In this document: positions 4,016 through 32,668 of the stretch, in pieces
Position numbering within the stretch: position 1 is the stretch's first letter
Layout: each line of letters opens with the position of its first letter
Source: Akkermansia muciniphila
GTDB lineage: Bacteria > Verrucomicrobiota > Verrucomicrobiia > Limisphaerales > BJHT01
Length of the DNA: 36,661 bases
NCBI GenBank assembly: GCA_945861535.1
Contig: CAMAUZ010000078.1
Coordinates: 1 to 36,661 of the forward strand
Reading direction: 5' to 3'
Made by a program: the position numbers and the translations under genes
The notes under the pieces: model-generated
Databases searched by the model: none
The model's input: the letters and a program-made list of their open reading frames with translations, nothing else
What the model was told of the DNA's origin: nothing

Positions 4016-5170
4016 TTAAGCGGCGGCGGCAGCGGGCATTTCCACGATGTTATCGGGGGTCGGTGCGAGCATCGTGGCCGGTGTTTTTCCGAACGAGACT
4101 TTTGCCGCCATGTCGGCGCTGTGCTCGTCGCGTAAGTGTCCGTAAACTCGCATCGCCAGCGCGCCACCGTCCTTGTGGCCGAGCCAGCGGGAGACGGTCG
4201 GAATGTCCACGCCGGATTCAATACAGCGCGTGGCGAACAGGTGGCGCAAGTCGTGATGCGTGAGCCGTGCCATGCCGGCGGTTTCGGCGGCGCGGTCCAT
4301 CGCCTTCTGGCATTCGTGAACGAGCATGACGGGGGCGGATTGCAGGGCGGCGGGACGCGATGCACGGAGGCGTTGAAGCAGTTCCCGCATTTCGGGAATC
4401 ATCGGGACAAAGCGGGCGGTGCCGTTCTTGGTGACGCGCAGGTGAACCTGCCCTTTGTCGAAATTCACGTCGTGCCATGTCACGTGCGCGGCCTCGTCTT
4501 TGCGAAATCCACCGAAGGCGAGGAACTGGACGAGATCGGCGCAATCGCGACTGAACCGACCGCCGCCGTCTGCAATGGCGGCGACGAATTGCAGGAACTG
4601 TTCGTGGGTCGGCAGGTTCAACTTGCGCTCGGTGGGGCGGGCGCGATTGATGCCTCGGGCCGGGTTTTTGTAACGGACTCCGCTGGCGACGCCGAGATCA
4701 ATTACCATTTGCAGGGTGGCGAGCGTGTTATTGAAAACGCTCGGGCTGTAGGCTTCGCTGAACTTTCGCGCCCATGACTTGCACTCGTCGGTTTTGAGGT
4801 TCGCGATGCGGGTCGCCTTGATGGCGGGCCAGCTTTTGAGCAGGGCGACGATGGTCTTGCGCCGATAGACTTTCGCGCCGGGTTTCAACTTGGTGTCGCC
4901 GGCGAGGTTTTTCTCAAACAGTGCCAGCGCATCGCCGAAGGTGGCGTCGCGCTCCATAAGGCGCTCGCTGCTTTCGAGTCGGGCGCGTTCCTCCTGTTCA
5001 ACATCGCGGAGCTTAATCTTGGCGACGGAGAAGGTGTGCGTATCGAGGGAACGCCAAACGAGCTTGCCGCCCGCCCGAAGGCGCGCATAGTAGCTCCCCG
5101 ATGGCACGTAGCGCACCAAGTTCGGAACCGGGGTTTTCTGCCACTTCACTCCGCCCAAATCGTTTTTCAT
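4016..5170 (-). CDS. Tyrosine recombinase (site-specific integrase)
   Basis: A 384-residue phage-type integrase that would catalyse integration and excision of the element. The N-terminal arm-binding/SAM-like region spans roughly residues 50-180 (DECKSWARKFSEAYSPSVFN). The catalytic domain follows with Arg in FGGFRKDEAAHVTW, the Lys hairpin VTKNGTARFVPM, the HDLRHLFATRC motif, and WLGHKDGGALAMRVYGHL containing the GH pair and the nucleophilic Tyr. All catalytic positions are present, so it is probably active. The start ATG lies only six bases behind a consensus-like -10 box, suggesting a leaderless mRNA. The gene begins 81 bp from the tRNA-Ile2 gene. Confidence 0.92.
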   Translation of the reverse strand: MKNDLGGVKWQKTPVPNLVRYVPSGSYYARLRAGGKLVWRSLDTHTFSVAKIKLRDVEQEERARLESSERLMERDATFGDALALFEKNLAGDTKLKPGAKVYRRKTIVALLKSWPAIKATRIANLKTDECKSWARKFSEAYSPSVFNNTLATLQMVIDLGVASGVRYKNPARGINRARPTERKLNLPTHEQFLQFVAAIADGGGRFSRDCADLVQFLAFGGFRKDEAAHVTWHDVNFDKGQVHLRVTKNGTARFVPMIPEMRELLQRLRASRPAALQSAPVMLVHECQKAMDRAAETAGMARLTHHDLRHLFATRCIESGVDIPTVSRWLGHKDGGALAMRVYGHLRDEHSADMAAKVSFGKTPATMLAPTPDNIVEMPAAAAA

Positions 5171-11806: not shown

Positions 11807-14575
11807 ATGACCGACCTCCGACACCACCTGGTCCTCACGCCGCATGGTCGGTTGCTGTGCGATGCGGTGCCGACCCTCGACGCGCCGCAGGCGGAGATCG
11901 CCGAACTGCCGGCGATCATGGAGGGATTTGCGAATTCGTCCGCGCGCGGGCTGCTGGCGCTGGCGGCGGTGCGCAAGGCAGGCGGCGGGTGGCCGGCGGA
12001 GTTTGTTTTTTGGCGCGAGCTGGCGGAGGCATATCTCACGGCGCTGGCGCACGCGCCGGAGCCGGCGGAGGGGCAGGCGTCCGCCGCGGTCGCGCCGCCG
12101 GCGGAGTTGTTTTTCGGGCTGACGTTGCGCATCCCGGCGATGCGCGGGGCGGAATATGCGGCGCCCGAGGTTTTCGCGGCGCTGTGGAATGAACTGGATG
12201 TGCTGGCGCGCGAGGAGGCACGGAAGGCGGGCGGGTTGAAGGTGTGGCTTGGGAAGATCAATCCCGCGCTGCATTTGCTGGGCAAGGTCACGTTTCATCT
12301 CGCCGAAAACAAACGCTCGCCGGAGACGCCGTTCGCGTTCATGGCCACGTTCACGCACCGGCTTTCCGCGCAGGAAAAGCCCGTGCATCTGCCGCTGGCG
12401 CGGGCGTTGCAGGATTATGCGGGCGCGAAGAATCAGGCGGCGTTGCGCGCGCTGCTCGAGCCGGTGCAGCGCGCCGCCGAGCGCAGCCCGTGGGCGCGCG
12501 AGGCGCTCGAGAGCCGGCGCGTGTTCGCAGCGCAGGCGTGGACGCCGGCGCAGGCGCACGCGTTTCTGCGCGAGGTGCCGGCGCTCGAGGAAAGCGGCAT
12601 CATCACGCGCATTCCCAACTGGTGGCGGGCCGGGCGCGGGCCGCGGCCCAAGGTCAGCGTGCGCATCGGCGATCAGAAAAACTCGGGCTTCGGCGTCGAG
12701 AGCCTGCTGCGGTTCTCGGTCGAGACCTCGCTCGATGGCGAGCCGCTGACAGAGGCCGAATGGGCGGCGTTGATGAAATCCACCGACGGCCTCGTGCTGC
12801 TGCGCGGTCAGTGGGTCGAGGCGGATCGCGACAAGCTCCAGAGCGTGCTCGAACACTGGCGGCAGGTGGAGGCGGGCACGGCGGGCGAGGGCGTTTCGTT
12901 CCTCGAGGGAATGCGCCTGCTCGCGGGCGTGCGGCTCGGGGACGCGACCGGAGACGAGGCCACGACCGAGGCTGCGGATTGGTCGCAGGTTGTCGCCGGC
13001 GGCTGGCTGCGCGAGGCGCTGGAACAACTGCGGCAGCCGGACCAGGCGGCGGCGTTTGATCCCAACCAGCATCTCCACAACGCGCGCCTGCGGCCGTATC
13101 AGGAGGCCGGCGTGAAGTGGCTGTGGTTCCTGCAAAATCTCGGCCTCGGCGCGTGCCTGGCGGATGACATGGGCCTGGGAAAAACGATCCAGGTGATTGC
13201 GTTGCTGCTGGAATTCAAGCACGGGGCGGCGTCTGCAACGACCGCCCGAAGCAATGTCGGCGCGGCGGGTGTCGCCGGCCCGACCTTGCTCATCACGCCC
13301 GCGTCGCTGCTCGCGAATTGGAAAAGCGAACTCGCGCGTTTCGCCCCGGGCCTGCGCGTCGCCTTTGCGCATCCGTCCGAGACGCCCGCCGCCGAGTGGC
13401 GCGACGAGGCCGCGGCAAAAGCGTTCATCGACGGGAAGGATGTGATTGTCACCACCTACGGCAACGTGACGCGGCTCGACTGGCTGGCCGCGCGCGACTG
13501 GCGGCTGATCGTCATCGACGAGGCGCAGGCGATCAAAAATCCCGGGGCCAAGCAGACCCGCGCGCTCAAGCGCCTGCGCGCCCGCGCCCGCATCGCGTTG
13601 AGCGGCACGCCGGTCGAGAACCGTCTCGGCGATCTGTGGTCGCTCTACGATTTTCTCAACCCCGGCCTGCTCGGTTCCGCGCCCGAGTTCTCGCGCTACG
13701 TGAAGGCCATCCAGACGGCCCCGCGCCCGGACTTCGCGCCGCTGCGCCAGCTCGTGCGCCCGTATCTGCTGCGTCGCCTCAAGACCGACCGCAGCATCAT
13801 TTCCGACCTGCCGGACAAGACCGAGCTGACCGCCTTCTGCGCGCTCAGCAAAAAGCAGGCGGCGCTCTACGAAAAAAGCGTGGGCGAACTCGCGGAGAAA
13901 CTCGACGAGGCCGAGCAAGGTATTCAGCGCCGCGGCCTCGTGCTGGCGTTCCTCATGCGCTTCAAACAAATCTGCAACCACCCCAGCCAGTGGCTCGGCG
14001 ACGCAGCTTACGGCGCGGAGGACAGCGGGAAATTCCAGCGCCTCGCCGAACTCAGCGACGAGATCGCGTCGCGCCAGGAGAAGCTCCTCGTCTTCACCCA
14101 GTTTCGCGAGATGACCGAGCCGCTGGCCGCGCACCTCCGCGCCGTCTTCGGCCGCCCCGGCCTCGTCTTGCACGGCTCGACGCCGGTGAAGGAGCGGCAA
14201 AATCTCGTGAGCGCCTTCCAGCGCGACGACGGCCCGCCGTTCTTCGTGCTTTCGCTCAAGGCGGGCGGCACCGGCCTCACGCTCACGGCGGCCAGCCATG
14301 TGATCCACTACGACCGCTGGTGGAATCCGGCCGTGGAAAACCAGGCCACCGACCGCGCCTTCCGCATCGGACAGAAGAAAAACGTGCTGGTCCACAAGTT
14401 CGTCTGCCGCGGCACCATCGAGGAGCGCATCGACGCGCTCATCACCGAGAAAAAACAACTCGCCGACGCCGTGCTCGGTGCGGAAGGTGGCGCGGAATCC
14501 ATGCTCACCGAAATGTCCAACGACGAACTCCTGCGCTTCGTGGCGCTGGATTTGAAGGCCTCGGCGGGCGACTGA
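11807..14575 (+). CDS. SNF2-family DEAD/DEAH-box helicase (bacterial Swi2/Snf2 ATPase)
   Basis: A 922-residue ATP-dependent DNA translocase. Residues 1-420 form the bacterial SNF2-associated N-terminal region. The ATPase core begins with RPYQEAGVKWLWFLQNLG and the Walker A segment LADDMGLGKT near residue 455, then VIDEAQAIKN near 570 and ALSGTPVENRLGDLWSLYDF. The helicase C-terminal lobe carries LVFTQFREM, LHGSTPVKER, SLKAGGTGLTL and the SNF2 signature HYDRWWNPAVENQATDRAFR-IGQ. It is followed by a SWIM zinc-finger gene in the same direction. This pairing is known from Bacillus ywqA/ywqB and many other bacteria and suggests a joint role in chromatin-like remodelling or repair. Confidence 0.93.
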   Translation: MTDLRHHLVLTPHGRLLCDAVPTLDAPQAEIAELPAIMEGFANSSARGLLALAAVRKAGGGWPAEFVFWRELAEAYLTALAHAPEPAEGQASAAVAPPAELFFGLTLRIPAMRGAEYAAPEVFAALWNELDVLAREEARKAGGLKVWLGKINPALHLLGKVTFHLAENKRSPETPFAFMATFTHRLSAQEKPVHLPLARALQDYAGAKNQAALRALLEPVQRAAERSPWAREALESRRVFAAQAWTPAQAHAFLREVPALEESGIITRIPNWWRAGRGPRPKVSVRIGDQKNSGFGVESLLRFSVETSLDGEPLTEAEWAALMKSTDGLVLLRGQWVEADRDKLQSVLEHWRQVEAGTAGEGVSFLEGMRLLAGVRLGDATGDEATTEAADWSQVVAGGWLREALEQLRQPDQAAAFDPNQHLHNARLRPYQEAGVKWLWFLQNLGLGACLADDMGLGKTIQVIALLLEFKHGAASATTARSNVGAAGVAGPTLLITPASLLANWKSELARFAPGLRVAFAHPSETPAAEWRDEAAAKAFIDGKDVIVTTYGNVTRLDWLAARDWRLIVIDEAQAIKNPGAKQTRALKRLRARARIALSGTPVENRLGDLWSLYDFLNPGLLGSAPEFSRYVKAIQTAPRPDFAPLRQLVRPYLLRRLKTDRSIISDLPDKTELTAFCALSKKQAALYEKSVGELAEKLDEAEQGIQRRGLVLAFLMRFKQICNHPSQWLGDAAYGAEDSGKFQRLAELSDEIASRQEKLLVFTQFREMTEPLAAHLRAVFGRPGLVLHGSTPVKERQNLVSAFQRDDGPPFFVLSLKAGGTGLTLTAASHVIHYDRWWNPAVENQATDRAFRIGQKKNVLVHKFVCRGTIEERIDALITEKKQLADAVLGAEGGAESMLTEMSNDELLRFVALDLKASAGD

Positions 14576-25923: not shown

Positions 25924-28900
25924 TTACCCTTTGCCCATCATCCGGCTGAACACGCCGCCCGGCTTCTGTTGTTGGACGATGACCTGTTTGCCGTTCAATT
26001 CGGTCAGCGTCTGGTTCAACGCGGCGATGCCCTGCTGGAGGGTGGCCAGTTGGGCGGTGGCCCCGCGCATCACTTCCTCGACCGCGCGGCTGGCGTCCTG
26101 CTGGAGTTTGCCGACGCTCGCTTCCACCGAGCGGGCCACGGTGGCCTGATGTTCCTGCGCGTGGCGGTCGAGACCGCTGAGCTGTTGTGTGGCGGCGCGG
26201 ACGGTCTCGCCGAGCGTGGCCAGATGCTGCGTCGCCGGGCGCAACGCTTCTTCCAAACCCTTGATCGAATCGCGTTGCAGGCGCGCGAGGTTTTCCTCCA
26301 CGCCGCGCCGCGTGGTTTCCTGCCCCTCGCGGGCCTGGCGGTCCAGCGCGCCGACGTGATCCGACACGACGCGCAGGCTGTCCGCGAGCGAACCAAACTG
26401 CACGACCACGGGCCGCAGGGTCTCTTCGAGAGACTTGGCAGTGTCGCGCTGGAGCTTGGCGGCGGCTTCTTCCATCGCCCGTTGCGCCGCGCTCTGTTGG
26501 TCGCGACCAGCACGATCCAGCGTGGTGAGCTGGGTGACGGCAGCCTTCACGCTCTCACCCAACGTCCCGAGCTGCTGCGCGGCGGGACGCAACGCCTCTT
26601 CGAACGCCTTGACGGAATCGCGCTGCAACCGGCTGACGGCCTCTTGCATCGCCCGTTCGGCGGCGGCCTGCTGCTCGCGCGCCTGCCGTTCGAGCGCCGC
26701 GGTGGAATCGTTCACGGTCTTGACCCCGGTGGCCAGCGCGGCCAGTTGCGTGGCCGCGGGCCGGAGCGCGTCTTCCAGCGCCTTGGTGGTCTCGCGTTGC
26801 AACTGGGTGGCGGCCTCCTGGGCCGAACGCAACGCGGCGGTCTGCTGCTCGCGGCTCTGTTTCTCGAGCGCCTGGGAATTGTCCGCGGCGGTCTTGACGA
26901 GGCCCGCCAACGCGGCGAGCTGGACGGAGGCCGGCCGCAGCGCTTCCTCGAGCGCCCGGGCGCTCTCCTGCTGCAACCGCGTCGCGGCTTCTTGCGCGGC
27001 GCGCTCGGCCTTGGCCTGTTGGTCGCGGGTCTGCTGTTCGAGGGCGGCGGTGGAATCGCTCACGGCCTTGACGCCCGTGGCCAGCGCGGCGAGCTGCGTG
27101 GCGGCGGGCCGGAGCGCATCCTCCAGCGCCTTGGTCGTTTCGCGTTGCAACTGCGCGGCCGCTTCCTGCCCCGCGCGCAACGTGGCGGTCTGCTGCTCCC
27201 GGCTCTGCTTCTCCAGCGCCTGCGAATTGTCCGCGGCGCTCTTGACGAGGCCCGCCAGCGCGGCGAGCTGCACGGACGCGGGCCGCAGCGCTTCCTCGAG
27301 CGCCTTGGAACTGTCGCGCTGCAACTGCGCCGCCGTCTCCTGGGCCGCGCGTTCCGAACTCGCCTGCTGCTCGCGCGTCCGCTGTTCCAGCGCGGACACG
27401 GCGGAGATGGCCGATTTCACGCCCTCCGCCAGCCCGGCGAAATGCTGCGTCACCGGCTTGGTGGATTCCTCGAGCGTCTTGCTCAGTTCGCGCTGCAACT
27501 GCGTAGTCGTGGTCATGAACGTCTGCTGCGCCGCCGCGTGCTGTTCGCGCGACTGCTTCTGCAACGCCGCCGATTCCTCGACCGCCTGTTTGGCCGTCGC
27601 GCCAATCGCCGCGAGCTGGGTCACGGCCGGCTTCATCACTTCTTCCATCGCCTTTGCCGATTGATCGGCCGAGGCCTTGATCGATTCGCCGAGAATCTTC
27701 GAGGCGTCCTGTTGCACGCGGGCGATGGATTCCTGCAACGCCTTCTGCACCCCGATCTGATGTTCGCTGGCCTGTTTCTCCAGCGTCGCCACATGCCCGG
27801 CCGTGGCCTGCACCGCGGCACTGAGCAACGTTACCTGGTGAACGGCGGGCTTGAACGTGTTCTCGATGGCCTTCGAGGTCTCGGAGACCGCGCCCTTCAT
27901 CGCCTCGGCGATCACCTTGCTCGAATCCTCCTGCAACTTCGCCAGCGTCTGCTTCACCGACGCATCAATCTGCGCCTGCTGGGTGGCCGCCACCTTCTCG
28001 AGCGACGCGACATGGTCGCCCGCCTTCTTCAACGTGCCGCTCAGGCTCTCCATGCTTTCGCCCGCTGTCTTCCCGAGGTCGCCGATGGTTTTGGCCGCGC
28101 TCTCTTGGAACGTCGTGACCGCTTTGGTAAAGGACTCCTGCACCAGCTTCTGATTCTCCGCCGCCCGTCGCTCCATCCCCTCGCTCTGCGTGCGGATGAG
28201 CGTGCTCGCCCCGTCCAGCCCGGTGAGAAACTGCGTGTGCGCCCGCGTCAGCGACGCCGTCAACACATCCGCCAGCGCGCCCATGTCGCCGCCGGCGGCG
28301 TTCGAGCCGTCGTTCAACCGCGGCATCAGGATGTCGTTACAGTACGCGTCGATGTGGTTGAGGTTGTCCTCCTCGACCTTCTGCAACGACGAGAGCGGGA
28401 TGCTCAGACAGATCGCGTAAATCAGCGCCAGCAGTGTGGTGTCGAACGACGTGCCCAGGCCGCTCGTCACCTTGCCCATCGACGACATCAGCTCCGAGGC
28501 GTTGCCGCCCGACGCGCCCATGACGCCTTGGAAGTTCCCGATGGCGTCCGACAAACCCAGAACCGTGCCGACGAACCCCAGAATCGGGATCGCCCACACC
28601 AGCACGCGCAACATCGTGAAACTGCCGCCGATGCGCGCCCCGTCGATGTTCGACTGGTTCTCCATCATCGTGGAGACATCCGAGTTCACCTGCCGCACCT
28701 CGAACAACTCGAGCGCCTTGCGGATGCGGTTGACCATCATGCTGTCCCGCAGCTTGACCGGCAGCGAATACACATGGGTGATGAACACATGGATGTTCGA
28801 CTTGTTGATCTCCCGCCCGAGGTTCTGCGGCACCACATCCAGCATTAACGCGTTGCGCTGGTGTTTGAGCTTCAGAAATTTCAGCACCAGAATCCCGACG

Positions 28901-29238
28901 CCCCACCCGAAGCAGATTGACTCCGCAAAGTTCACCCAGGTCCGCAGGTAGAGGATCTGGAAATAGAACGATTTCGGGAACGGCAGCGCCGGCAGATAAA
29001 TCAGCGCAAACACGCCGAGGCCGATCGCCATCGCCATCCACACGTTGGCGTTGCACGGGTCCGTCTCCTTCCAACCGGCGCGCCCCGCCGTCGAGGCCGC
29101 CGGACCTTTGCCGTCATCCTTCGGCGCCGCGGGCACCGTCAGCTTCGTCCCGCACCCGGGACAGTTAACCGTCGTGCCGGTGTGCTCCGGCTCGACCATC
29201 AATTTCATCGCGCAGACCGAACAGTGGAATCGAATCAT
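25924..29238 (-). CDS. MotA/TolQ/ExbB-type motor A subunit with zinc ribbon and long repeated coiled-coil tail
   Basis: A 1104-residue protein. Residues 1-40 form a CxxC zinc ribbon (FHCSVCAMKL, then NCPGCGTKLTVPA). About 65-125 contain two membrane helices. About 205-290 carry the TolQ/ExbB core: WAIPILGFVGTVLGLSDAI and GLGTSFDTTLLALIYAICL, the classic third and fourth helices of the proton channel. From about residue 400 to the end stretches a cytoplasmic helical tail of roughly eleven related units, most of 58 residues (for example LRPAATQLAALATGVK and LEKQSREQQ). Known ExbB/TolQ proteins have 220-250 residues. The long tail recalls ZorA of Zorya defence, but no ZorC or ZorD genes are near. 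Transcribed first in a three-gene operon. Confidence 0.85.
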   Translation of the reverse strand: MIRFHCSVCAMKLMVEPEHTGTTVNCPGCGTKLTVPAAPKDDGKGPAASTAGRAGWKETDPCNANVWMAMAIGLGVFALIYLPALPFPKSFYFQILYLRTWVNFAESICFGWGVGILVLKFLKLKHQRNALMLDVVPQNLGREINKSNIHVFITHVYSLPVKLRDSMMVNRIRKALELFEVRQVNSDVSTMMENQSNIDGARIGGSFTMLRVLVWAIPILGFVGTVLGLSDAIGNFQGVMGASGGNASELMSSMGKVTSGLGTSFDTTLLALIYAICLSIPLSSLQKVEEDNLNHIDAYCNDILMPRLNDGSNAAGGDMGALADVLTASLTRAHTQFLTGLDGASTLIRTQSEGMERRAAENQKLVQESFTKAVTTFQESAAKTIGDLGKTAGESMESLSGTLKKAGDHVASLEKVAATQQAQIDASVKQTLAKLQEDSSKVIAEAMKGAVSETSKAIENTFKPAVHQVTLLSAAVQATAGHVATLEKQASEHQIGVQKALQESIARVQQDASKILGESIKASADQSAKAMEEVMKPAVTQLAAIGATAKQAVEESAALQKQSREQHAAAQQTFMTTTTQLQRELSKTLEESTKPVTQHFAGLAEGVKSAISAVSALEQRTREQQASSERAAQETAAQLQRDSSKALEEALRPASVQLAALAGLVKSAADNSQALEKQSREQQTATLRAGQEAAAQLQRETTKALEDALRPAATQLAALATGVKAVSDSTAALEQQTRDQQAKAERAAQEAATRLQQESARALEEALRPASVQLAALAGLVKTAADNSQALEKQSREQQTAALRSAQEAATQLQRETTKALEDALRPAATQLAALATGVKTVNDSTAALERQAREQQAAAERAMQEAVSRLQRDSVKAFEEALRPAAQQLGTLGESVKAAVTQLTTLDRAGRDQQSAAQRAMEEAAAKLQRDTAKSLEETLRPVVVQFGSLADSLRVVSDHVGALDRQAREGQETTRRGVEENLARLQRDSIKGLEEALRPATQHLATLGETVRAATQQLSGLDRHAQEHQATVARSVEASVGKLQQDASRAVEEVMRGATAQLATLQQGIAALNQTLTELNGKQVIVQQQKPGGVFSRMMGKG
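25990..28010. repeat. 174-bp (58-codon) tandem repeats in the motor A gene
   Basis: The coding sequence of the tail repeats every 174 bp. Two neighbouring blocks of 348 bp (about 26700-27047 and 27048-27395) are almost identical and represent two-unit super-repeats, so recent duplication or gene conversion is likely. Units toward both ends are more diverged, and the first two (upstream) units are somewhat longer. Boundaries are approximate. Confidence 0.8.
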
Positions 29239-29296: not shown

Positions 29297-29407
29297 CGGG
29301 CAACTCGGCAAGGGGGGAGCTGCGCTGCCGCGCCGGCCGCACTCCGGCCGTAGGAAATGGAATCTGCCATTGCTCTGTCGGTATCCTTTCCCCAACATCC
29401 GCGCCCG

Positions 29408-32400
29408 ATGTCGAGTGTGCGCAGACAATATCCGTTCCAGTTGATCGAGCCCAAATGGCAGCGATTTTGGGATGAGCAGCAGACTTTTCGCGCGTGGAAT
29501 CCGGGTGAAAAAATTCCGGTGAGTCATCCGTTTTCCAAACGGCATGGCGGCGCGGATGCGGCGCGGGTGCCGAAGTATTACATCCTCGACATGTTTCCGT
29601 ATCCGAGCGGCGCGGGGCTGCACGTCGGGCATCCGGAGGGGTACACGGCGACGGACATTCTGGCGCGTTACCGGCGCGCGCGCGGTTTCAATGTGCTGCA
29701 TCCGATGGGCTGGGATTCGTTTGGTCTGCCGGCCGAGCAGTACGCGGTGAAGACAGGGCAGCATCCGCGCAAGACCACGGAGGCGAACATCACGACCTTC
29801 AAGCGGCAGATTCAGTCGCTGGGTTTCAGCTACGACTGGTCGCGCGAACTGGCGACGACGGACCCGGAATACTTCCGCTGGACGCAGTGGATCTTTCTTC
29901 AGATTTACCACGCGTGGTTCAATCCGGAGACTAATCGAGCGGAGCCGATCAGCACGCTGCGGTTGCCGGAGGAATGCGACACGGAGGAAAAGCGCCGCGC
30001 TTATCGCGACTCGAAGCGACTCGCCTATGTGAGCGAAGCGCCAGTGAACTGGTGCCCCGAACTCGGCACGGTGCTCGCCAACGAGGAGGTCATCGACGGC
30101 AAGAGCGAGGTCGGTGGCTTCCCGGTGATCCGCAAGCCGATGCGGCAATGGTTGCTGCGCATCACGGCCCTGGCCGAGCGGCTGCTCAACGATCTCAAGA
30201 CCATCGAGTGGAGTCATTCGCTGAAGGAGATGCAGCGGAATTGGATCGGAAGGAGCGACGGGGCGGAGGTGGAATTCAGAATCCAGAATTCAGGATTCAG
30301 AATCACCGTGTTCACGACGCGGCCGGACACGCTGTTCGGCGCGACGTACATGGTGCTGTCGCCGGAGCATAAGCTGGTCGCGGGCATCACGACCGCCGCG
30401 CAGCGCGACGCGGTGAAGCAGTATCAGCAGTTTGCAACGACCAAGTCCGACCTCGAACGCACGGAACTGGCGAAAGACAAGACCGGCGTCTTTACCGGCG
30501 CGTTCGCACTCAATCCGGTCAACGGCGAGAAGATTCCCATCTGGATCGCGGACTACGTGTTGGCGAGCTATGGAACGGGCGCGATCATGGCGGTGCCGGG
30601 GCACGATGCGCGGGATCTGGAGTTTGCGCGGAAGTTCGCGTTGCCGGTGCGCGTGGTGGTGCAGGCGCCGGACGGGAAGGATTCCACCGGCTTTCTGGAC
30701 GACGGCGTGGCGGTGAACTCGGACTTTCTCAACGGCCTGCGCACGCCGGAAGCCAAGGCTAAAATCAGCGCCTGGCTGGAGGAAAAGGGGCTCGGCAAAA
30801 AGACCATCAATTACAAGTTGCGCGACTGGCTCTTCAGCCGGCAGCGGTATTGGGGCGAGCCGTTTCCCATAGTGTGGAAGCGCGATGCGGGCGGGAATTT
30901 GTATCACGAGGCGGTGGCGGAACATTTGCTGCCCGTGCTGCCGCCGCAACTGGAGGATTACAAACCGACCGCCGACGGGCGTCCGCCGCTCGCCCGCGCG
31001 GAATCATGGGTCAAGTTGGCCGAGGGCGTCGAACGCGAGACGAACACGATGCCGCAGTGGGCGGGGAGCTGCTGGTATTACCTGCGCTATCTGGACGCCA
31101 AAAATCTAAAGCGCGGCTGGGACAGTGTGACGGAAAAATACTGGATGGGCAGTTTGCTTCCGCACCTGCCGAAGACCACACGGGAGATGCACGAGCAGAT
31201 CGGACGCGTGGTGCAATGCGCGATTACCCGTCCCCAAGGCCCGCGCGCGGAGGCCATCATCGGGCGCGTGACGCCGGCGGTGGCGACGCAGGTGCGCGCG
31301 GCGACTGGGCTGGATGTGAGCGGATATTTTTTCCGGCTGGACAGTTACGGAGTGCGCCATTCGTACCTTCAGCATCATGTGGCCGCACTGGAGGCGGCGC
31401 GCGGCCAGCGGGCGGTGATGCCGGAAGATTTTCAGAAACTGCCCGCGATTTACGCCGCGCCCGACCGCATCGAGGATGGAGGCACGAACAACAACGGGCG
31501 GCGCGTGGTAAGATTCATCAAGCGCACAAACGGAATTGTGGTCGTGGTCGAGGAAGTTCTCACCGGGAGGGAATGCCTGGCCTTGCAAACGATGTTCATC
31601 CGAACGGCTGAAGCGGCGGGGGGGAAATTGCAACCGGCGAGTGATGCCGCCATCGGAGCCCCACTCTTTACGGCCGATACCGACCGGTCTGAGGCGGAGC
31701 TTATCAGCGCGGATGCGGAGGTCAATTCCTGCCTCGGCGTGGACCTCTACGTCGGCGGCACCGAACACGCGGTGTTGCATCTGCTCTACGCGCGGTTCTG
31801 GCACAAGGTGCTGTACGACCTCGGCCATGTCTCGACGGCCGAGCCGTTTTTCAAGCTCGTCAATCAGGGGCTGATCCTCGGCGAGGACGGGCAGAAGATG
31901 TCGAAGGCGCGCGGCAATGTGGTGAACCCGGACGCCGTGGTGGCGGAATACGGCGCGGATTCGCTGCGGTTGTACGAGATGTTCATGGGGCCGCTGGAGA
32001 TGGTGAAACCGTGGAACACCAAGGGGGTCGAGGGCGTTTATCGTTTTCTCGGGCGCGTGTGGCGGCTGTTCGTGGATGAGGAAAGCGAGACGGCCTTCGA
32101 GCAAAACCTGGCGGCCGATCCGGCGCGGGGCGCGGAGTTTCTCCAACAAATTCAGCCGCACCGGGGGATCACGAACTGCGAGCCGACGGGTGCGCAGTTG
32201 AAAACGTTGCACGCGTGCATCAAGACGGTGACGGAGGATCTGGACCATCTGGGTTTCAACACGGCGATCTCGGCGTTGATGGTGTTCACGAACGAAGCGA
32301 TGACGTGGGAGACGCGGCCGAAGCGGGTGCTGCGGGAGTTTCTTCTGTTGTTGCAGCCGTTCGCGCCGCATCTGGCCGAAGAGCTGGCGCAGATCATCGG

Positions 32401-32668
32401 CGCGCAGGACAGCCCGGAGCTGCGCACGCTGGCGTATGATCCGTGGCCGAAGTTCGATCCGGCGCTGCTGGTCGAGGCGACGCTCGAGATTCCCGTGCAG
32501 GTGAATGGCAAACTGCGCGGCGTGGTGGTGGTGCCGACCGAGGCGACAGGGCCGCAGATCGAGGCGGCGGCGCTGGCGGATGAGAAGGTGAAGGGGTTCA
32601 TCGCCGGCAAGACGATCAAGAAAATCATCGTCGTGCGCGGCAAGCTGGTGAACCTCGTGGTCATGTGA
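29408..32668 (+). CDS. leuS: Leucyl-tRNA synthetase with inserted PBECR-like nuclease domain
   Basis: A 1086-residue class I synthetase charging tRNA-Leu (usual bacterial length 800-880). Signatures: [20 protein letters not shown] with the HIGH-type motif HVGH near residue 72, editing domain with [16 protein letters not shown] and [19 protein letters not shown], then [33 protein letters not shown], and [13 protein letters not shown] near 830. The synthetase is complete, but between EKYWM and GVDLYVGG, normally adjacent, about 197 residues are inserted (31148-31738). A dispersed-repeat string encodes [10 protein letters not shown] in the editing domain. I start at the ATG at 29408 ([20 protein letters not shown]); an ATG at 29357 adds a 17-residue unconserved leader. 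The gene is divergent from the motor operon. Confidence 0.95.
30273..30304 (+). repeat. AATTCAGAATC-type dispersed repeat within leuS
   Basis: AATTCAGAATCCAGAATTCA followed by GGATTCAGAATC is a run of about three near copies of AATTCAGA, a style of short repeat otherwise seen between genes. Here it is read in frame as [10 protein letters not shown] at the beginning of the editing domain, just before [12 protein letters not shown]. It replaces rather than lengthens the usual sequence there. Confidence 0.65.
31148..31738 (+). other. In-frame PBECR-like (phage RNase-superfamily) domain inserted in LeuRS
   Basis: About 197 codons with no counterpart in leucyl-tRNA synthetases separate EKYWM from GVDLYVGG. 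The insert contains [84 protein letters not shown] and [13 protein letters not shown]. This order (R-H....H, R-G-Q...D, P-D-x-I, K-x2-N-G, V-E-E-V, T-M-[FY]) is what I know from the phage Barnase-EndoU-ColicinE5/D-RelE-like (PBECR) domains, normally found at the end of phage head-morphogenesis and polyvalent proteins. All hallmark positions seem retained, so catalytic activity is possible. It does not look like an intein: there is no Cys or Ser splice start and no terminal HN. Confidence 0.75.

Follow-up and report, generated by a model that had tools for sequence, protein, structure and literature searches.

A PBECR3 domain within one loop of leucyl-tRNA synthetase and its apparent movement between leuS genes

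The leuS gene and its insert

The window (the whole stretch of DNA analysed here, 36,661 nucleotides) carries on its plus strand a leuS gene at 29357-32668, a single open frame without a stop that codes for a leucyl-tRNA synthetase (LeuRS) of 1103 aa from the first ATG, or 1086 codons if counted from the ATG at 29408. The protein matched the bacterial LeuRS family TIGR00396 (leuS_bact) with an E value of 7.6e-290 in the NCBIfam search, and the LeuRS motifs HVGH, TTRPDT of the editing domain (residue 320 on) and KMSKA (847 on) could be located in it. Between YWMG and GVDLYVGG, at a position where a single residue separates WM from VD in Thermus LeuRS (1h3n), lies an insert of 195 aa coded by 31151-31735; its span depends on the borders used, and becomes 197 codons (31148-31738) when counted from YWM to VDLY. 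An earlier note made from the DNA alone had described an interruption of about 197 codons in one open leuS frame of 1086 codons and had assigned it to the PBECR domains, and both observations were borne out, the frame and insert lying at the positions given above and a profile search returning the Pfam family PBECR3 (PF18812) for the window insert at 54.7 bits (E 1.2e-14), above the gathering cut-off of 30. PBECR3 was the sole Pfam family to match this insert at E 1 or better, no NCBIfam family did so at the same threshold, and PBECR3 was matched in all seven LeuRS inserts that we found. An assembly error or chance is very unlikely as an explanation, since the insert has the same site and frame in seven LeuRS genes from seven genomes. 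That a complete PBECR3 domain sits in frame within one LeuRS loop and is mobile between leuS genes we consider close to certain. The features of the locus are as follows.

29357..32668 (+): leuS, leucyl-tRNA synthetase with insert, 1103 aa (open frame, TIGR00396, motifs)
31151..31735 (+): insert, residues 599-793, between YWMG and GVDLYVGG (same site in 7 genomes)
31277..31606 (+): PBECR3 core, PF18812 positions 6-109 of 115 (Pfam match)
31157..31621 (+): part of the insert that folds independently, model residues 23-177 (AlphaFold2)
31355..31360 (+): Arg667-His668 in model helix 85-95, invariant in 7/7, predicted active site (alignment and model)
31373..31375 (+): His673, second invariant His (alignment)
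31550..31555 (+): Glu732-Glu733 (VEEV), invariant in 7/7 (alignment)
31589..31591 (+): Thr745 in the last model strand (162-172), invariant in 7/7, predicted active site (alignment, model and the available part of PMC5512222)
31622..31735 (+): C-terminal tail of low confidence, with a T-[SA]-[ED] motif common to the 7 inserts and a remnant in the genome G001
30911..31138 (+): divergent tract upstream of the insert, recombination footprint (67% identity to G001, against 94% elsewhere in leuS)

Elsewhere in the window, a frame of 1104 aa at 25924-29238 (-) codes for a MotA/TolQ/ExbB domain and, after it, a long stretch that is repetitive and resembles a coiled coil, a phage-type integrase is coded at 4016-5170 (-), and an SNF2-type helicase with DUF3670 at 11807-14575 (+).

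Predicted fold and active site

Modelled alone with AlphaFold2 from an alignment of eight sequences, the insert gave a confident separate domain, with ten-residue pLDDT means of 87-94 over model residues 31-170 and ends of low confidence; independent folding, for which the earlier note had proposed a structure prediction, is therefore predicted with high confidence. Three helices (85-95, 98-103 and 111-122) are followed by strands at 126-132, 138-146, 149-158 and 162-172. Comparison of this model by VIA-align placed BrnT first (Z 7.7, rmsd 2.9, 75 of 77 residues), followed by RelE proteins and contact-dependent inhibition (CDI) toxins at Z 5.0-5.5, values that are moderate, a best Z of 7-8 being common according to the tool. 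Foldseek returned no match to the model in the PDB at E 0.001 or better, and among predicted viral proteins it was matched at that threshold by six large phage proteins, three of which are named nuclease (best E among these 3.5e-9). Searched by sequence, the PDB gave one chance-level match to the insert (E 0.89) and none to the insert profile.

Alignment showed that R667, H668, H673, E732, E733 and T745 are invariant in the seven inserts. H668, H673 and T745 correspond to H70, H75 and T147 of the insert numbering; in the model, helix 85-95 contains H70, and T147 belongs to strand 162-172, the fourth of the last sheet. The PBECR active site, as described in the available part of PMC5512222, consists of a His in a helix and a C-terminal Thr, and the RNase activity of the PBECR3 family is itself a prediction there. 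Among the six other inserts, those apart from G019 share only 29-41% identity with the window insert, and the predicted catalytic residues are still kept. Eight free relatives of the domain, picked out of 21 collected, have eight invariant columns, and in five of these, the two His columns among them, every LeuRS insert has the same residue as the free relatives (hypergeometric p 0.0026); the Thr and EE columns vary among these eight relatives, and the window and G019 inserts are without the Gly of a KEHG motif that is present in the other copies. The model and alignment together point to a predicted BECR-type RNase fold with its predicted catalytic residues retained.

The full-length LeuRS model (pTM 0.29) was too poor for placing the insert against tRNA. 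The point of entry of the insert is where the VDLYVGG strand starts, at its N-terminal end, with GG.EHA at the opposite end, and in the class I Rossmann fold the active site is found at the end of such strands opposite the N-terminal one. It is therefore likely that the insert lies on the far side of the sheet, away from the active site, and the suggestion that it is seated next to the active-site loop was not supported.

Distribution and movement between leuS genes

PF18812 matched nine of the 320 genomes of the order, and in seven of them (G000, which is the window genome, G019, G010, G047, G062, G188 and G119) the match is in leuS. Each of these filled genes comes from a different family and has the insert in frame at the same site, so that the search of related leuS genes, another check proposed in the earlier note, did recover it elsewhere. 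The phylum sample gave PF18812 in 17 of 387 genomes, the window genome included, with a LeuRS motif near the match in none of the other 16 loci; the class sample gave it in 14 of 384, four of which are from the order (G000, G068, G188 and G002), and three further new loci of that sample had no LeuRS motif near the match, the weak matches in G877 and G887 falling outside this check. Among the loci checked in both samples, no copy in leuS was found outside the order. A contig search with the window insert alone found no relative, and with the query A2 it found three LeuRS and one other sequence. The three LeuRS records, from Pedosphaera sp. isolate Baikal-deep-G228 and two other verrucomicrobial MAGs, are apparently G010, G119 and G188 and were not counted as independent cases. 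Pedosphaera is placed by NCBI in Pedosphaerales, Verrucomicrobiota, and filled leuS genes are known from a few bacteria related to it. A match in G031 (E 5.9e-4) was rejected as a relative of the insert; it sits on an unrelated frame.

In each of the six carriers other than the window genome, no LeuRS besides the filled gene scored above the family cut-off; since their completeness is 57-93%, a second copy could have been missed in some of these genomes, hardly in all. The LeuRS that carries the insert is therefore probably functional. The carriers are patchy, four genera (g1, g4, g67 and g76) having both filled and unfilled genomes with the insert in one member each, and the genus mates examined (G001, G004, G075, G190, G192, G193 and G116-G118) have no PBECR3 domain. 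Both observations bear on the idea that the domain was domesticated as an RNA-binding module, in which the BECR fold would bind tRNA or rRNA and tune LeuRS (its affinity or its location at the ribosome) without cutting. Such a role would agree with the presence of the insert within the only LeuRS found in six genomes, and the accessible text of PMC5512222 proposes an RNA-binding function for the PBECR domain of gp30 of phage Mu, which is inactive, but a part integral to tRNA binding should have been retained by all members of those four genera, and the catalytic His and Thr are kept in seven of seven copies. We regard this alternative as decidedly unlikely.

Other departures from the usual LeuRS architecture were also observed in the order. 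The second LeuRS of the window genome (G000:C5:132512-137428; L044:6513-11429, +) shares one open frame of 1638 aa with 2-isopropylmalate synthase (LeuA), which precedes it, and by Pfam the two form a LeuA-LeuRS fusion; this LeuA has matches at E 1e-40 in 25 others of the 58 genomes searched, none of them in a frame longer than 891 aa, and no paper on such a fusion was found among the open-access papers searched, as judged by title and start of abstract. Some LeuRS (L039, L045 and L046, from G062, G068 and G012) have about 60 aa or more before KMSK with no counterpart in others, that of the window included, and LeuRS matches in G071:C86, G126:C68, G111:C33 and G310:C217 lie in frames of 1316-1412 aa, longer than usual.

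In relatives without PBECR3, anything from no residue at all to 47 aa stands between YWM and VDLYVGG, and the sequence of this loop is often of low complexity or resembles repeats. Short repeat-like inserts in frame, such as NFELETLNFELGK and SLSTLNSQLSTKST, occur there in many relatives (L049, L048 and L112-L133), and the four members of genus g67 examined have no loop insert. The longest of these loops, with 47 residues beginning TTGAHAVAGLDQTSETFRRSE, belongs to G001, the sister genome of the window; the PBECR3 insert of G047 ends with TTGARALSGLDQTSETHRRSG, and its DNA is 89% identical to the G001 loop over 61 bases. A profile of the tail and following flank matched 284 of 320 genomes, and the best eight among the matches listed were the seven filled genes and G001. 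G067 matched over positions 14-61 with an alanine- and proline-rich loop, and G314 (positions 11-61), whose sequence was left out of the reading, was another long match among those listed. A tail similar to that of the inserts, HTSETS, is found in one free phage relative. It is probable, judging from this shared tail, that G001 once held a G047-like insert and lost the domain, keeping the insert-like tail; the window holds a G019-like insert instead.

G188 and G075 belong to the same genus. The two are 94-96% identical over 5.6 kb around leuS, and the sole large gap in this region is the insert, with 570 bases in G188 and three in G075. Differences are clustered at both borders, 15 of them in the last 39 bases before the insert, and after it five successive codons that differ at the third base followed by one base in the next 57. 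This pattern indicates that the G188 insert arrived together with the borders of another leuS allele. The window leuS is 93.5% identical to that of G001 upstream and 95.5% downstream, against 67% in a 228-bp tract at 30911-31138, immediately ahead of the insert, where 2dlnL reached 132.7 in a first run of few shuffles (largest of the 20, 23.8) and 134.6 in a second run. Over 30900-31150 the window is 79% identical to G019, a genome of a different family, versus 70% to G001.

Pairwise runs, with only 10 shuffles per pair, gave 2dlnL values beside the insert of 50.0 for G188/G075, 31.5 for G188/G192 and 27.2 for G188/G190. Compared with G004, which is of the same genus, G062 diverges most in a tract at the insert, with a weak signal (33.1), and G119 has no tract at the insert against three genus mates, a case that is either uninformative or older. 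Insert-free control pairs also exceeded their own shuffles, elsewhere in the gene (G118/G116 41.0, at the gene start, where the frames of both reach upstream beyond the start codon; G118/G117 34.3; G075/G192 15.4), and therefore the tracts of G188 and G062 rest also on their position beside the insert; the window tract alone is far above every control pair. Homologous recombination has carried the insert from one leuS gene to another, in at least one case into an empty site, and the empty site of the G188/G075 pair and the conversion tracts speak against vertical inheritance with many losses as a full account. The patchy occurrence, the empty sites and the recombination tracts had not been anticipated in the earlier note. 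Part of a housekeeping enzyme, as these tracts show, can travel between species like a mobile element, and the filled and empty alleles within one genus provide a clean natural experiment.

A shared site, filled and empty alleles and conversion tracts on both flanks would also be expected of an intein-like or homing element. Neither Pfam nor NCBIfam, however, found an intein or homing-endonuclease family in the insert, and PBECR is a predicted RNase, not a DNase, which leaves an element of this kind highly improbable; an intein as such was rejected, the insert being without a Hint or homing domain in both searches.

Selection, phage relatives and function

In the closest pair, the window and G019, the insert (dN 0.213, dS 1.015) resembles the LeuRS body (dN/dS 0.188/1.044 upstream and 0.258/1.136 downstream), and the PBECR3 core alone gave dN 0.161 and dS 1.296, all by NG86 and with dS values near saturation. 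Against the other five inserts the dN of the window insert is 0.60-0.96, and in the comparison with G010 it is 0.601, versus 0.155 and 0.226 for the body. These estimates indicate that the insert is constrained like the enzyme body in the closest pair only and changes faster in others. The LeuRS body itself, compared between the window and G001 (dN/dS 0.020/0.251 upstream, 0.019/0.138 downstream), is under strong constraint despite the second LeuRS of the window genome.

The loop is a tolerant site, and this is the main support for regarding the insert as a tolerated passenger, that is, for a loop that accepts nearly any in-frame DNA and a PBECR3 domain spread by chance recombination with no benefit, the main rival of the tethered RNase that we prefer. 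A passenger would explain why the domain occurs rarely and patchily, why the genus mates examined lack it, why G001 apparently deleted all of it except for the tail, and why most insert pairs diverge far more than the LeuRS bodies. It would not explain why the core is under purifying selection in the closest pair, why predicted catalytic residues are invariant in strongly diverged copies, or the repeated gain of the same domain family at one site, which is unexpected under neutral uptake. On balance we find a passenger rather unlikely, with an appreciable chance of being correct.

Free PBECR3 relatives were found in a phage head protein and in large phage or polyvalent-like proteins, and in G068 a 548-aa frame (L040:1194-2840, -; G068:C240) ends in PBECR3 and is Mu-type portal-like by reading of its sequence. 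Since G068 is of the same order, local phage donors may exist, and the phage-type character attributed to the insert in the earlier note is likely correct; a phage-type origin is likely as well. The phage and plasmid collections yielded six records only, with 50-55% of the query matched at 33-36% identity; in PHROGs the window insert had no match at E 0.01, and two of the seven inserts had weak matches to each of two families of unknown function. In a tree of 24 of the 28 domains collected, the seven inserts formed one clade in 0% of bootstrap trees. A second tree of 14, leaving out 14 domains that were short, long-branched or distant and were chosen after the first tree, grouped five inserts with an Azospirillum plasmid entry and put G047 and G062 on the side of the phage entries, again with one clade in 0% of bootstrap trees, and a forced single clade was not rejected (p-AU 0.068). 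The phage head and polyvalent-like relatives could also suit a decoy or immunity function, in which the domain would mimic an injected phage RNase and titrate a phage partner or block superinfection with no enzymatic action in the host. No partner gene was found, however, and a decoy need not keep catalytic residues, which makes this very unlikely.

Our first choice, held tentatively, is an RNase tethered to LeuRS, held silent by it and conditionally active on RNA. It is preferred because the catalytic residues persist in copies only distantly related to that of the window and because the same family was taken up repeatedly at one site; PBECR3 in seven of seven inserts, the autonomous fold, the RNase toxins heading the structure comparison, the matches to large phage proteins named nuclease, the purifying selection in the closest pair, the presence in the only LeuRS found in six genomes and the mobility also support it. 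A PBECR3 domain derived from a phage gene would be kept silent by LeuRS until translation or the synthetase is disturbed, for example by phage attack, and would then act on RNA, tRNA-Leu being the obvious candidate; cells gaining the cassette would acquire conditional growth arrest and defence with no extra gene cost. Against this, an RNase that is always active would be toxic when built into an essential enzyme, and neither a mechanism of silencing nor an immunity gene was found. G188 and G075 differ over their 5.6 kb by the insert as the only large gap, and a partner gene could be elsewhere or in both. The faster change of the insert relative to G010, the variable Thr and EE in free relatives, the missing KEHG Gly of the window and G019 copies, the lack of a Foldseek match in the PDB, the moderate Z values, the rarity of filled genes (7/320) and the lack of matches to anti-phage families in PADLOC also count against a tethered RNase. 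A bolder proposal, in our opinion unlikely, is that an essential gene has acquired a mobile allele in the form of a phage RNase domain: a nuclease that is catalytically competent and active only under certain conditions would be carried within LeuRS, spread among species by allele exchange at one loop and turn LeuRS into a suicide or defence switch that cleaves its bound tRNA. The insert offers a direct test of how a dangerous activity stays silent in an essential protein.

An RNase domain of a toxin family inside an essential translation enzyme is a combination of which no description was found among the open-access papers searched; with the terms used, none of these linked LeuRS or another synthetase to PBECR or to a domain described as inserted, nuclease or toxin. 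PBECR domains and synthetase inserts are each known, and it is the combination of LeuRS with PBECR and its movement between species that appear new. With PBECR3 of Iyer et al. 2017 (PMC5512222) the insert agrees in sequence family and predicted fold and in having a His in a helix and a C-terminal Thr. The settings given in the available part of that paper are phage MuF, portal and polyvalent proteins, mobile elements or the domain alone, whereas the insert sits inside a host aminoacyl-tRNA synthetase. The MuF polymorphic toxins of temperate phages, described in the accessible portion of PMC5576092 as phage proteins with variable toxic C-terminal domains, are a possible source and, unlike the insert, are not part of a housekeeping enzyme there. 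RNase toxins of the BrnT, RelE and CDI types have a related fold by structure comparison, at moderate Z, but possess antitoxin or immunity partners, and none was seen for the insert. Inteins and homing elements occur in essential genes with a fixed site, empty and filled alleles and conversion tracts, all of which the insert shares with them; it differs in having no intein or homing-endonuclease family and in that it probably stays in the protein.
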